Source: Mesorhizobium sp. B1-1-8
GTDB taxonomy: Bacteria; Pseudomonadota; Alphaproteobacteria; Rhizobiales; Rhizobiaceae
Length of the DNA stretch: 64,000 nucleotides
Assembly (NCBI RefSeq): GCF_006442795.2
Contig: NZ_CP083956.1
Location: forward strand, 2,767,501-2,831,500
Direction: 5' to 3'
Shown: positions 44,959 through 50,162 of the stretch, in pieces
Layout: each line of letters opens with the position of its first letter
How positions within the stretch are numbered: the first letter of the stretch is position 1
The notes under the pieces: generated by a model
The model's input: only the letters and a program-made list of their open reading frames with translations
Databases searched by the model: none
What the model was told of the DNA's origin: nothing
Program-made: the position numbers and the translations under genes

Positions 44959-46287
44959 ATGCGTTTGTCGCGCTACTTCCTGCCTATTCTCAAAGAAAAT
45001 CCTCGCGAGGCCGAAATCGTCTCGCATCGACTGATGCTGCGCGCCGGCATGATCCGCCAGCAGGGGCAGGGCAGCTTCACCTGGCTGCCGATCGGCAAGC
45101 GGGTGCTGGACAAAGTCTGCCGGATCATCCGCGAGGAGCAGAACCGGGCCGGTGCGCTGGAGATCCTGATGCCGACCATCCAGTCGGCCGATCTTTGGCG
45201 CGAAAGCGGCCGCTACGACGATTACGGCAAGGAGATGCTGCGCATCAAGGATCGCCAGGACCGCGACATGCTCTACGGTCCGACCAACGAAGAGGTGGTC
45301 ACCGAGATTTTTCGCGGCTACGTCAAGTCCTACAAGGACCTGCCGCTCAATCTCTACCATATCCAATGGAAGTATCGCGACGAGGTGAGGCCGCGCTTCG
45401 GCGTCATGCGCAGCCGAGAGTTCCTGATGAAGGACGCCTATTCCTTCGACCTCGATTTTGAAGGCGCCAGGGCCGCCTACAACCGCATGTTCGTCTCCTA
45501 TCTCAGGACGTTCACGCGCATGGGCCTGCAGGCCATTCCGATGCGCGCCGACACCGGCCCGATCGGCGGCGACCTCAGCCACGAGTTCATCATCCTGGCC
45601 GACACCGGCGAGAGCCAGGTGTTCTGCGACCGCCAGTATCTCTCGCTCGATGTGCCGGGGGCGGATACCGACTTTTCGAACGACGCCGAGATTGCCGGGA
45701 TCGTCAAGACGTGGACGACGCCTTACGCCGCCACCGACGAGATGCATGACGAGGCAGCCTGGGACAAGCTCGCCGAGGACACCAGGGTTTCGGCGCGCGG
45801 CATAGAAGTTGGCCATATTTTCCACTTCGGCGAGAAGTATTCCAAGCCGATGGGCGCCAAGGTGACCGGGCCTGACGGCAAGGAGCATTTCGTCTCGGGC
45901 GGCTCCTACGGCATCGGCCCGTCGCGGCTGGTCGCGGCGATCATCGAGGCAAGCCATGACGAGAACGGCATCATCTGGCCGCAATCGGTGGCGCCGTTCG
46001 ATATCGGCCTGATCAACATGAAGGCCGGCGACGCCGAATGCGATCGCGTCTGCGACGAGCTCTACGCGGCGCTGGCTGCTGCCGGCAAAGACGTGCTTTA
46101 CGACGACACCGACCAGCGGCCGGGCGGCAAGTTCGCCACCGCCGACCTGATCGGTCTGCCCTGGCAGGTGATCGTCGGCCCGCGCGGCGTCGCCGCCGGC
46201 GACGTCGAAATCAAGAACCGCAAGAGCGGTGAGCGTGAGACGCTGCCGATCGCGGAAGCCAAGAAGCGCCTGGGTATCGCCGCATGA
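44959..46287 (+). CDS. proS: Prolyl-tRNA synthetase, short alphaproteobacterial form
   Basis: The 442-residue protein charges tRNA-Pro. It has the class II motifs, with [21 protein letters not shown] near residue 31, [17 protein letters not shown] near residue 95, and [28 protein letters not shown] near residue 137. It lacks the editing insertion of longer bacterial forms, as usual in alphaproteobacteria. The start at 44959 ([14 protein letters not shown]) matches the family; a longer frame adds a Pro/Ala-rich leader of 23 residues. It overlaps the lolC-type gene by four bases. Confidence 0.95.
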
Positions 46288-47570
46288 GCGAGGCGGCGGC
46301 AGCGGCCCGATCACCGGCAGGCGCCTTTTCGGGCTTCGAGCGCATGGTGGCGTGGCGCTATCTGCGTTCGCGACGCAAGGAGACGGTGATCTCGGTCATC
46401 GCCTCGATCTCCTTCCTCGGCATCATGCTGGGCGTCGCGACGCTGATCGTCGTCATGGCGGTGATGAACGGTTTTCGCGCCGAGCTGCTCACCCGCATCC
46501 TCGGCGTGAACGGCCATCTGATCGTGCAGCCGTTGGATTCGCCGCTGGAGGACTATGCCCAGGTGGCGAGCCGCATCAACGGTGTGTCCGGCGTCAAATA
46601 CGCCATCCCGCTGATCGACGGGCAGGTGCTGGCGCAAGGCAATGTCGGCGGCGGCACCGGCGCGCTGGTGCGCGGCATTCGCGGCGACGACCTCGGCAAG
46701 ATCGCCATCGTCGCCAGCAACATCAAGGAAGGCACGCTCGACGGCTTCGACGCCGGCGAGGGCGTGGCGATCGGCAAGCGCATGGCCGAGAATCTGGGCC
46801 TCGTGCTCGGCGACACCATCACGCTGATCTCGCCGGATGGCGACGTCACCCCGCTCGGCACGAACCCGCGCATGAAGGGCTACAAGGTCACGGCGATCTT
46901 CGAGGTCGGCATGTCGGAATATGACAGCTCGATCGTCTACATGCCGTTTTCCGAGGCGCAGCTCTATTTCAACATGGACGGACGGGCGCAGACCATCGAG
47001 ATCTATGTTGACAACCCAGACAATGTCGACGCGCTGAAGCCGCTGGTCGAACAGGCGGCGCAGCGGCCGATCGATCTCGTCGACTGGCGCCAGCGCAACG
47101 AAACCTTCTTCTCGGCCTTGCAGGTCGAGCGCAACGTCATGTTCATGATCCTGACGCTGATCGTGCTGGTGGCGGCGCTCAACATCATCTCGGGCCTGAT
47201 CATGCTGGTGAAGGACAAGGGCCACGACATCGCCATCCTGCGCACGATGGGCGCCTCGCGTGGCGCCATCCTGCGCATCTTCCTGATGACGGGGGCGGCG
47301 ATCGGCGTCACCGGCACCATTGCCGGTGTGCTGCTCGGCGTCGTCATCTGCCTCAACATCGAATCGATCCGCCAGTTCTTCTCCTGGATGACCGGGCGGA
47401 TCCTGTTCAACCCCGAGCTCTATTTCCTCAGCCAGCTGCCGGCGAAGATGGATCCGCGCGAGACCACCTATGTCGTCATCATGGCGCTGGCGCTGTCGTT
47501 CCTGGCGACGGTGTTTCCGGCCTGGCGGGCGGCGCGGCTCGATCCCGTCGAAGCCTTGAGGTACGAATGA
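46284..47570 (+). CDS. lolC: Lipoprotein-releasing ABC transporter permease, LolC/LolE family
   Basis: The 428-residue inner-membrane protein is the permease of the Lol system that releases lipoproteins toward the outer membrane. It has an N-terminal membrane helix after [10 protein letters not shown], a large periplasmic domain (residues about 60-280), and three C-terminal helices, with [21 protein letters not shown] near residue 312 in the cytoplasmic coupling region. One permease gene next to lolD is the usual alphaproteobacterial setup, so it may act as a homodimer. Both ends overlap neighbours as ATGA. Confidence 0.93.
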
Positions 47571-48250
47571 TGGCCGACGCCATTATCGAGCTCAAGGGCG
47601 TCGAGCGGCACTATGTCCAGGGGCCGCGCAAGCTCACCATTTTGAACGGCGCCGATTTCTCGCTGAAGCGCGGCGAGATGGTGGCGCTGGTGGCGCCGTC
47701 GGGCACCGGCAAGTCGACCTTGCTGCACACGGCAGGCCTGCTCGAGCGGCCCGACGCCGGCGACGTGGTCCTGAGCGGGCGCGCCTGCGGCCGGCTTTCC
47801 GACGAGGAACGCACCGCCATCCGCCGCAACGATGTCGGTTTCGTCTACCAGTTCCATCATCTGCTGCCGGAATTCTCGGCGCTCGAAAACATCATGATGC
47901 CGCAGCTGATCAAGGGTCTGGGACGCAAGGACGCCTCCGAGCGGGCGGCGCAGCTTCTCGACTATATGCAGATCGGCAAGCGCGCCCAGCACCGGCCATC
48001 CGAGCTTTCGGGCGGCGAGCAGCAACGTGTCGCAATTGCCCGCGCGGTCGCCAATGCGCCGCTGGTGCTGCTGGCCGACGAGCCGACCGGCAACCTCGAT
48101 CCGGCAACCGCGTCTTATGTCTTCGACGCGCTGGAGGCGCTGGTCAGGCAGTCGGGGCTCGCGGCGTTGATCGCCACCCACAATCACGAGCTGGCCGGGC
48201 GCATGGACCGGCGGGTGACATTGGCAGAGGGCAAGGTGGTGCCGCTTTAG
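47567..48250 (+). CDS. lolD: Lipoprotein-releasing ABC transporter ATPase
   Basis: The 227-residue ATPase has Walker [20 protein letters not shown] near residue 41, the Q loop [15 protein letters not shown] near residue 91, the signature [14 protein letters not shown] near residue 146, and Walker [12 protein letters not shown] near residue 167. [13 protein letters not shown] is typical of LolD and MacB-type ATPases. It overlaps the permease gene by four bases. Two tandem ATG codons (47567 and 47570) are possible starts. Confidence 0.95.
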
Positions 48251-48587
48251 GGTATGTTCCCCCAACGTCGTCATCCTAGGGCGAAGCTCCGCGAAGCGGA
48301 GCGTAGACCCTAGGATCCATGCCGTTACTTTCGAGACAAATGCTGGGGTCAGGATAAGGGACCTCTATCAGAGCGATAGTTTTGCACCGTAGCATAACAT
48401 CTATGTCACGGCATGGATCCTAGGGTCTGCGCGCGTCGCTTCGCTCTGGGATGACGAAGCGATGGGTATGCTGACCAATCGCAAAGGCGTGCGGCTGTCC
48501 GATAGCACTATTCGACGCCTCGTCAACCTTTCCTTAACCGTGCCCAAATGGACAGCCCAATTCACTCCGTGGGGCTCTCTGTGATCG
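48251..48587. other. Intergenic region of 337 bases, mostly a repeat element
   Basis: Most of this gap between lolD and the SOS promoter is the palindromic element at 48269-48456. The rest, 48457-48587, shows no gene and no strong structure. Confidence 0.5.
48269..48456. repeat. Palindromic MITE-like element, copy 1
   Basis: The ends are CGTCATCCTAGGG and GGATGACG, inverted. Inside, CCTAGGATCCATGCCGT is met by ACGGCATGGATCCTAGGGTC. A second copy with the same ends and inner arms is at 62564-62720; the centres differ in length and sequence. No open frame is inside. The two copies lie in intergenic gaps after plus-strand operons. Confidence 0.85.
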
Positions 48588-48622
48588 TTGACATTCGAAC
48601 AAAATTAGAACAAAATACGAAC
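48588..48622 (+). promoter_or_regulatory. LexA (SOS) operator with three GAAC half-sites over a -35 box
   Basis: GAAC occurs at 48597-48600, 48608-48611 and 48619-48622, giving two overlapping copies of the alphaproteobacterial LexA box GAAC-N7-GAAC with exact spacing. TTGACA at 48588-48593 is a perfect -35 box; CAAAAT 17 bases later is a possible -10. The operator therefore covers the promoter. It lies 22 bases before the start of the 28-codon membrane peptide gene. Confidence 0.85.
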
Positions 48623-48644
48623 ATGTTAACAACAGGAGAGAGTT

Positions 48645-48731
48645 ATGGCCGATCTGGTGCAGGATGTCGTCTCGCTCGTCTGCATGAGCACCTTCCTCGT
48701 TTCCATGGCGATGTGGATTGGCGCCATGTGA
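48645..48731 (+). CDS. SOS-controlled 28-residue membrane peptide, possible SidA-like division inhibitor
   Basis: A 28-codon frame opens with ATG behind AACAGGAGAGAG, an excellent ribosome site, and ends at TGA 48729-48731. The first nine residues (ADLVQDVV) are polar, and residues 9-28 form one hydrophobic membrane span (LVCMSTFLVSMAMWIGA) rich in Met. A double LexA box sits directly upstream. In Caulobacter the 29-residue LexA-controlled membrane protein SidA blocks cell division; size, topology and regulation agree here, but sequence homology has not been tested. A TisB-like toxic peptide is the alternative. Confidence 0.75.
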   Translation: MADLVQDVVSLVCMSTFLVSMAMWIGAM

Positions 48732-48784
48732 GAATGCGGCTTCTGCCGCCGCTGTTTTCGGGCGGGCAAACGGCCCGCTCTCGA

Positions 48785-48852
48785 GACGGCAAGAGCCCGC
48801 CCGTGGGACAGGCAAGGGCCTGCCGTCGGGACGGGCAAGAGCCCGCCCGTTG
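48785..48852 (+). repeat. Tandem array of three short hairpin units
   Basis: Three units of 22-23 bases, at 48785-48806, 48807-48829 and 48830-48852, share the pattern GAC-GGC-AAG-AGCC(C)GCCCGT and each folds on itself (for example CAGGCAAGGGCCTG). A fourth, more diverged unit (GGGCGGGCAAACGGCCCGCTC) precedes them at about 48760. They follow the SOS peptide gene and may act in termination or RNA stability. No spacers are present, so this is not CRISPR. Confidence 0.7.
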
Positions 48853-48911
48853 TTAAGCCTTTCTTGCCGCACCGCCGCTAGGTTTGCCCGAAGCACAGGG
48901 AGTAGCATCGC

Positions 48912-50162
48912 GTGTCGGTCATCGTCACGGTCATCCTGGTGGCCGGAAATCTTGGACTGATCTTTCTCTTGATGACGGTGCCGCTCGGGCTGCGCACGGT
49001 CCGGGTCAGCCGCGTGGTGGCGGCCGACCGGCATCGCCTGTGGCAGGCGCTGTGGCCGTTCGGCAGCGACGCCGGCTGGTCGGGCGAAATCCTCTCGGCC
49101 GAGCCGCTGGACTGCGAGGGCATGACCCTGGTCAAACTGTCCTGGGAGGGCAGGGACGGCCAGCCGATCGAGCGCAAGGCGGTGTTCGAGGATGTCGTGG
49201 AAGAGAGCCGTTTTTCGATGCGCGTCATCGACGATACTGCGCTCGATCCCTCGTTCTGGGCCAATTATCGCGAGACCGCCGAGCTGGTGCCCGAGGGCGA
49301 TGCAACGCGGGTCACCCTGACGCAGACCGACCGCTATCGCGGTCTCGCCTTCCTGATCTTCCGCTATTTTGCGCTGCGCCGCGAGCTCGGCAAGCTGCAG
49401 CTCTGGGTGCGGACTGGCGAGTTTCGCAAGGGCGGCTGGTTCGAGCATCCGCTCAGCCAGGTCGGCTTCGCCGTGCTTTCGGCTTTCATCCTGTGGCCGT
49501 TCTTCGGCCTCAACCCCGGCGGACTGATCCTGGCCGCCATCCTGACCTCGGTGGTGGCGCTGCACGAGCTCGGTCATATGGCGGCGTTCCGGCTGACGGG
49601 GCATCGCCGGGCGCGGATGATCTTCATCCCGCTGCTTGGCGGCATCGCCATCGGCGGCAGGCCCTATGACAGCCGCTTCGAGGTCGCCTTCGTGGCGCTG
49701 ATGGGCGCCGGCTTCTCCGCCTTCCTGGTGCCGGTGCTGATCGCGGCCAGCGGCTTCGTCGGCGGCGAGGGACATCGCCTGGCGGCGGCGCTTCTGGCCA
49801 CACTTGCCGGCTGCGCCTCGCTGTTCAACATCGCCAATCTGGTGCCGGTGTGGAAATTCGACGGCGGCCAGGTGCTGCGCCAGATCTGCCCCGGGCCGGT
49901 CGTGCTCGCGGCGGCGTCGTTCTTCCTGCTGTTCGCCCTGCTGGCGCTCGGCTGGCGGGCCGGCTTCTCGTCCAGCTTCTTGCTGATTGCCGGCGCGGTG
50001 TTTTCGATTCTCAGCCTGATCACCATGGGCAGCGGCGTGAAGCCGCGCCACGAGCTGAAGCCGATCCAGTCTTTCGATCGTCTCGCCATGGCCGGCGCGT
50101 TGCTCGCCGTTTTCGCCATCCACGGTTATGGCCTGCTGTGGGCCGCGGCGCAGCTGGCCTGA
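48912..50162 (+). CDS. M50 (site-2-like) membrane metalloprotease with N-terminal SRPBCC-like domain
   Basis: The 416-residue protein starts at GTG 48912. A first membrane helix (residues 3-24) is followed by a soluble part at about 30-165 that resembles SRPBCC/polyketide-cyclase folds (VVAADRHRLWQALWPFG, then RYRGLAFLIFRYFALRRELGKL). Residues 180-416 form a polytopic domain with the zinc motif HELGHMAAF near residue 217 and ANLVPVWKFDGGQVL near residue 309, where the Asp is the third ligand. M50 enzymes cut membrane proteins such as anti-sigma factors; no such target is adjacent. Convergent with lipB. Confidence 0.8.
   Translation: MSVIVTVILVAGNLGLIFLLMTVPLGLRTVRVSRVVAADRHRLWQALWPFGSDAGWSGEILSAEPLDCEGMTLVKLSWEGRDGQPIERKAVFEDVVEESRFSMRVIDDTALDPSFWANYRETAELVPEGDATRVTLTQTDRYRGLAFLIFRYFALRRELGKLQLWVRTGEFRKGGWFEHPLSQVGFAVLSAFILWPFFGLNPGGLILAAILTSVVALHELGHMAAFRLTGHRRARMIFIPLLGGIAIGGRPYDSRFEVAFVALMGAGFSAFLVPVLIAASGFVGGEGHRLAAALLATLAGCASLFNIANLVPVWKFDGGQVLRQICPGPVVLAAASFFLLFALLALGWRAGFSSSFLLIAGAVFSILSLITMGSGVKPRHELKPIQSFDRLAMAGALLAVFAIHGYGLLWAAAQLA

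Follow-up and report, generated by a model that had tools for sequence, protein, structure and literature searches.

The window analyzed here, a 64,000-nucleotide stretch of the Mesorhizobium sp. B1-1-8 genome, contains a 28-codon open reading frame (ORF; 48645-48731, forward strand) that, judging from its sequence and setting, is a probable divergent rhizobial ortholog of Caulobacter sidA. We consider it likely that this gene encodes a LexA-released inner-membrane peptide that holds the late divisome inactive after DNA damage. Computational comparison revealed conservation of its frame, operator and neighbourhood, a profile relation to SidA and, for some copies, a phage context. With less assurance, we favour a broader scenario in which an SOS checkpoint gene of ancient origin in the Alphaproteobacteria, ancestrally placed between lolD and dnaE1 and controlled by LexA, would survive in Caulobacter as sidA, in rhizobia and in several further lineages, would have disappeared from many others, and would have been taken up by temperate phages to serve as an early-operon inhibitor of host division.

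The gene lies within a small, complete transcription unit (48588-48759, forward strand) comprising a promoter, two overlapping operators, a Shine-Dalgarno sequence, the 28-codon ORF and a terminator-like hairpin. A promoter scan identified a sigma-70-type promoter (48588-48616), with TTGACA (48588-48593) and CAAAAT (48611-48616) separated by a 17-nt spacer, as the single promoter-like site on either strand of the 48200-49000 region (0.3 expected). The three GAAC half-sites with exact 7-base gaps reported in an earlier note on this DNA are indeed present (48597-48600, 48608-48611 and 48619-48622), and compose two overlapping predicted LexA operators of the form GAAC-N7-GAAC-N7-GAAC (48597-48622, forward strand). 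That note had them overlapping the -35 TTGACA; they start instead 3 nt past the hexamer, and occupy the promoter spacer, the -10 element and the base pairs immediately past it. The distance of 22 bases it gave to the frame is correct when measured from the end of the final half-site to the ATG.

The Shine-Dalgarno sequence AGGAGA (48634-48639, forward strand) sits 5 nt upstream of the ATG, and purine-rich sites resembling it precede the start codon, by eye, in most of the relatives listed. The ORF encodes a sidA-type peptide of 28 aa (MADLVQDVVSLVCMSTFLVSMAMWIGAM) with a conserved aspartate at position 7 (D7), for which Pfam returned no match. Its best 17-residue Kyte-Doolittle mean (1.97) points to a single hydrophobic span. 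Four nt past the stop codon lies the hairpin GCGGC-TTCT-GCCGC with a T-rich tail (48736-48759, forward strand), where a terminator scan yielded two overlapping matches (0.6 expected); the earlier note does not mention it. Promoter, ORF and hairpin therefore delineate an apparent self-contained monocistronic unit of ~170 bp.

The GAAC-N7-GAAC pattern has four matches in the window versus 1.4 expected from shuffled sequences, and the overlapping pair accounts for two of the four. The same operator element, GAACACAACTGGAAC, is found upstream of lexA in the window's own genome, supporting the notion that it is the host's LexA operator. Genome-wide, the pattern shows no enrichment (131 matches versus 158 for a reversed control) and by itself therefore says little; at the sequence level, the case for the operator depends on position, overlap and conservation rather than on pattern count. 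The genome also contains a second, weaker LexA_DNA_bind match (26.5 bits, cut-off 23.7) on its second contig (G000:C2:480690-480869, locus L230).

The peptide gene is preceded by lolD, identified by domain and sequence match as an ABC transporter ATPase gene (47567-48250) and a common upstream neighbour among its relatives, and by a lolE/lolC gene with MacB_PCD and FtsX permease domains (46284-47570). Downstream, an M50-type membrane protease gene (48912-50162) occupies the place held by dnaE1 in other lineages; all of these genes lie on the forward strand. At the window locus lolD adjoins the peptide gene and dnaE1 does not, the only dnaE match listed for the genome being located at C1:3257317. 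What disappeared in the window lineage is apparently the adjacent dnaE, not the peptide gene. The region also shows repeated sequences. The stretch separating lolD from the promoter holds a long interrupted palindrome (48268-48457), with 28-nt arms 93% complementary and 26-nt arms 85% complementary, that resembles a mobile intergenic repeat element. Downstream of the peptide gene, GGCAAGAGCCCGCCCGT occurs twice, in exact copies, at 48788-48850, and similar GGGCGGGC...TTGCCCG repeats are visible 3' of the gene in several relatives within the genus.

The earlier note had proposed conservation of frame and operator in related genomes as a check. Both are kept within the genus and are also found in the family and the order. 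All 28 residues are encoded in each of 61 same-genus genomes, its own included (E <= 4e-10), and 30 genus loci yield a dS of 0.37 and a dN of 0.032, the resulting dN/dS of 0.087 indicating purifying selection on the peptide. A family search matched 146 of 297 genomes at E <= 1. We inspected 155 loci, encompassing 30 from the genus, 25 from the family and 100 retrieved as regions, of which two belong to other families of the order. Five matches judged false positives (L168, L175, L176, L184, L185), ten copies of a second, box-less peptide type (L125, L140, L146, L159, L160, L164, L166, L172, L178, L181) and L183, from another family, were left out of operator counts. At least one exact operator is present in all 30 genus loci (26 of them with two) and in 102 of the 109 other family loci, one of the seven exceptions (L119) lying at a contig end. 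Among the 132 box-bearing loci, the first operator starts 44-56 nt upstream of the start codon in 104, and TTGAC occurs no more than 14 nt upstream of the first half-site in 92. Conserved residues are few (D7 and F17), position 7 being acidic (D or E) in 131 of the 132 peptides of 28 aa. Judged by this sequence conservation, the ORF is a real gene.

Gene order was assigned across the 155 loci by taking the nearest of dnaE, M50 and lipB within 1.7 kb. The arrangement lolD-peptide-dnaE was found in 23 loci, lolD-peptide-M50 in 33 and lolD-peptide-lipB in 23; lipB, often the downstream neighbour, lies on the opposite strand. Overall, 98 of the 155 loci, false positives and cut loci included, have lolD (>45% identical) no more than 1.5 kb upstream.

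Profile A1, derived from 44 peptides of the family, had matches at E <= 0.1 in 64 of 249 genomes of the order. The 24 newly fetched loci comprised three from the window's own family and 21 from other families. An exact operator occurs within 130 nt in 16 of these 21, and four more (L188, L204, L205, L207) show, by eye, a one-letter operator variant; one match (L202) was judged a false positive. The peptides in these loci outside the family are mostly 32 aa long, and lolD lies in the 1.5-kb flank of 13 of the 21. Going by these sequence matches, the gene is older than the family.

Searches across the class gave mixed results. Profile A1 matched 20 of 289 class genomes at E <= 0.1, one of these matches being the window gene, and the six inspected among the other 19 (L210, L211, L212, L214, L223, L226) contained no operator and no comparable gene. 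The NCBIfam SidA model NF033228 matched 107 of 289 genomes at E <= 1, mostly partially and in none of the 289 above its cut-off; 30 loci were fetched and 17 of them inspected, operators being present just in L243 and L247. As a locator for Caulobacteraceae, Rfam RF01867 proved unusable, matching 61 of the 289 class genomes. Profile A3, which adds three SidA-type sequences to profile A2 (37 rhizobial and order-level peptides, no SidA included), matched 107 of 289 genomes at E <= 1. Thirteen of its 28 new loci were inspected, and seven carry an operator, an ORF of 29-47 aa and dnaE, five of these seven also having lolD. The loci added by A3 come from families f42, f55, f61 and again f115. In two loci from f61 (L276 and L277) the frame is extended N-terminally (47 aa, ...WFQDIAALASVAAMGWTVLLWSEIAKAAVAG), and operator, lolD and dnaE are kept.

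A complementary view was obtained from the region preceding dnaE. The DnaE N-terminus matched 171 of 177 class genomes searched, and up to 1.7 kb upstream of dnaE was taken from 100 of them down the similarity-ranked list, mostly one per family; the window's own genome was excluded, as were families f61 and f115, in which the gene had already been found. With lolD found upstream of dnaE in 59 of the 100 regions, we scanned the interval from lolD to dnaE or, where no lolD was found, the last 900 nt (60.6 kb in total). The forward operator was detected in 12 regions versus 0.9 expected from simple base counts, and in 11 of the 12 a hydrophobic ORF of 26-35 aa starts 44-60 nt after the operator start; the twelfth (L303) has a hydrophobic ORF of 38 aa with its start 47 nt downstream of a reverse operator. 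Two backwards-read control motifs hit one and three regions, none with such an ORF. The 15 operator-linked ORFs (overlapping frames included) outscore 332 other small ORFs on profile A2 (p 2e-6), six of them exceeding all 332, and are also more hydrophobic (p 3e-6). Reverse operators occur in nine of the 100 regions, two with such an ORF (L303, L325) and seven without, so an operator before dnaE is not a sufficient sign of the peptide. The forward operator is absent from 88 of the 100 regions, most families being without the gene here; many lineages have lost, moved or never acquired it. On the sequence evidence, operator-linked relatives are present throughout the family and the order and in some alphaproteobacterial families outside it. 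In L314, L321, L327, L341, L354 and L365, reverse operators (GTTC-N7-GTTC) lie 61-91 nt before the dnaE match with no peptide, and dnaE1 itself may be under LexA control in these genomes.

In Caulobacter, SidA is a 29-aa, LexA-regulated inner-membrane protein that inhibits division and has FtsW and FtsN as interaction partners (PMC4211646), and cells without lexA become filamentous via sidA (PMC12700426). We searched four named Caulobacter genomes, located via RsaA, with profile A2, obtaining six matches at E <= 10. One was full length (Caulobacter sp. 602-1, E 0.78), and the matched ORF is SidA according to NF033228 (73.4 bits, cut-off 35), a model whose cut-off is also exceeded in the control C. 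vibrioides. Taken by itself this E-value is weak for a genome search, and A2 listed SidA in this one genome although all four carry it. The match is in frame, ungapped and begins at the first residue, and it hits the one gene predicted beforehand. SidA scores 14.9 bits on A2, a value reached by 3 of 20,000 SidA shuffles, and for three Caulobacter SidA variants 1, 1 and 3 of 10,000 shuffles score as high. A GAAC-N7-GAAC operator lies upstream of sidA, and dnaE follows it, in all four genomes; lolD lies within 1.5 kb before sidA in one, Caulobacter sp. 602-1, whose locus reads lolE-lolD-sidA-dnaE1 and whose LolD is 59% identical to that of the window.

The window peptide and SidA share an operator type just upstream, a length of 28-29 residues, a single hydrophobic span and an ungapped profile alignment in which position 7 is D or E and position 17 is F. 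Their loci agree in part: dnaE1 comes after sidA and after some relatives of the window peptide gene, and lolD precedes the window gene and one of the four Caulobacter genes. The two also differ. The window has two overlapping operators, its peptide lacks basic residues whereas SidA carries R3 and R6, and the A3 alignment shows 18% identity between them. The curated model is likewise blind to the rhizobial peptide: NF033228 does not match the window peptide, nor is the peptide listed at E <= 1 in a search of its own genome, where two matches lie elsewhere. The analogy to SidA drawn in the earlier note is strengthened by operator type, size, a partly shared neighbourhood and ungapped profile alignment to probable orthology.

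For the window peptide, LexA binding, SOS induction, membrane insertion, target and division arrest are what we infer from the sequence and from this relationship. In an undamaged cell, LexA bound to the two overlapping operators between -35 and -10 would block the promoter; upon DNA damage, RecA-stimulated cleavage of LexA would free it, and the short leader and strong ribosome site would allow rapid translation. As proposed from SidA, the peptide would insert in the inner membrane as a single helix with the acidic D7 where the span begins, bind FtsW and its partners FtsI/FtsN and keep them inactive, so that septation would wait for repair. Copies in temperate phages would probably hit the same target, stopping host division during induction.

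TisB and DinQ of E. coli are small SOS-induced membrane peptides with a type I toxin architecture that includes an antisense RNA. A peptide of this kind, an SOS-induced helix lowering the membrane potential and leading to dormancy, was the alternative raised in the earlier note. Size class, single hydrophobic span and LexA operator fit it, and DinQ provides a precedent as an SOS-controlled, toxic single-span peptide with antisense-RNA type I architecture (PMC3567139). Signs of a structured leader or antisense RNA are, however, absent at the window locus: the 22 nt between the last half-site and the ATG leave little room for such a leader, Rfam has no match in 48000-49200, and the single promoter-like site in 48200-49000 is not antisense; an antisense RNA of an undescribed kind is still conceivable. 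The probable orthology with SidA also argues against a depolarising peptide, and D7 and F17 are so well conserved as to suggest that the peptide contacts another protein. We thus regard this alternative as unlikely, and as less likely than the SidA reading. Large membrane proteins are often bound by small membrane peptides, and with LolDE and an M50 protease as neighbours the product could conceivably be an SOS-induced regulator of some other membrane protein, such as a transporter, protease or envelope-stress factor. This too we consider improbable, given that the downstream neighbour varies (M50, lipB, dnaE) while peptide and operator stay, and that the scanned phage-type copies have other neighbours.

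A role as a leader peptide or upstream ORF regulating the downstream gene has a parallel in the translated small ORF reported in the dnaE1 5'-UTR of S. meliloti (PMC10117765), but is very unlikely here: what lies downstream differs between loci and is frequently lipB in the opposite orientation, the ORF is followed by a terminator-like hairpin, and the peptide is under purifying selection. Short ORFs abound, 116 of at least 25 aa overlapping the surrounding 10 kb, and the operator pattern is not enriched in the genome; even so, a chance ORF beside a chance operator is refuted by how many genomes keep the frame, the operator and the neighbourhood, and its probability is negligible.

Beyond SidA itself, the inhibitor of the late divisome that we favour invites comparison, by description, with other small inhibitors. 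Caulobacter DidA, also a small membrane protein induced by damage, inhibits division through the FtsW/FtsI/FtsN complex, but has 71 residues and is SOS-independent, being activated by DriD (PMC4211646). YneA of Bacillus, which interacts with FtsW (PMC13396833), and SosA of Staphylococcus (PMC6851548) are SOS-induced division inhibitors from different phyla. Among the open-literature matches listed, titles and abstract beginnings name no peptide of this kind outside Caulobacter, and no rhizobial SidA homologue or SOS division-inhibitor peptide; the means by which rhizobia and most other Alphaproteobacteria halt division upon DNA damage appears undescribed there. A small-proteome study of S. meliloti reports the dnaE1 5'-UTR sORF mentioned above, sORF25, and SEP6, a peptide of <30 aa from the membrane fraction, encoded by an sORF conserved within Hyphomicrobiales; the words LexA and SOS do not appear in its main text (PMC10117765). 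That sORF25 or SEP6 might correspond to a gene of the window type is a guess. As the gene is <100 bases long and has a LexA operator at a predictable place, our reading is testable in S. meliloti and Mesorhizobium, and natural variation among >100 of these peptides could serve to locate a contact with FtsW.

The ten box-less matches from the family search represent a second peptide type. Five of these loci were scanned (L125, L140, L159, L178, L181), revealing RecT, exonuclease VIII (DUF3799), CI-like repressors, PAPS reductase and DUF5131; phage signs are weaker in L125, with a weak repressor match and DUF5131. By gene content, the scanned box-less copies sit among phage early genes. A search of IMG/VR contigs with a degenerate DNA pattern fixing the start MRDL matched five viral contigs (L401-L405), each with an ORF of 32-33 aa; L401 is the same DNA as L140, leaving four additional contigs. 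Of the four viral contigs scanned (L401, L402, L404, L405), exonuclease VIII is nearby in three and RecT in two of these, and the neighbours in L405 are all genes of unknown function. A tblastn search with the phage-type peptide found no match among annotated phages and plasmids, nor did one with the window peptide among plasmids.

Many phage-type peptides start with MRDLL and have no LexA box, which such copies would not need if expressed on phage induction, itself often triggered by damage. Kil of phage lambda is a small inhibitor of host division encoded in the early operon near recombination genes, and acts on FtsZ. The phage-type copies, which adjoin RecT, exonuclease VIII or CI-like repressor genes in most scanned cases, and RecT and/or exonuclease VIII in several, are candidate Kil-like inhibitors of host division by virtue of gene context. 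These phage-borne versions suggest that viruses use the same switch.
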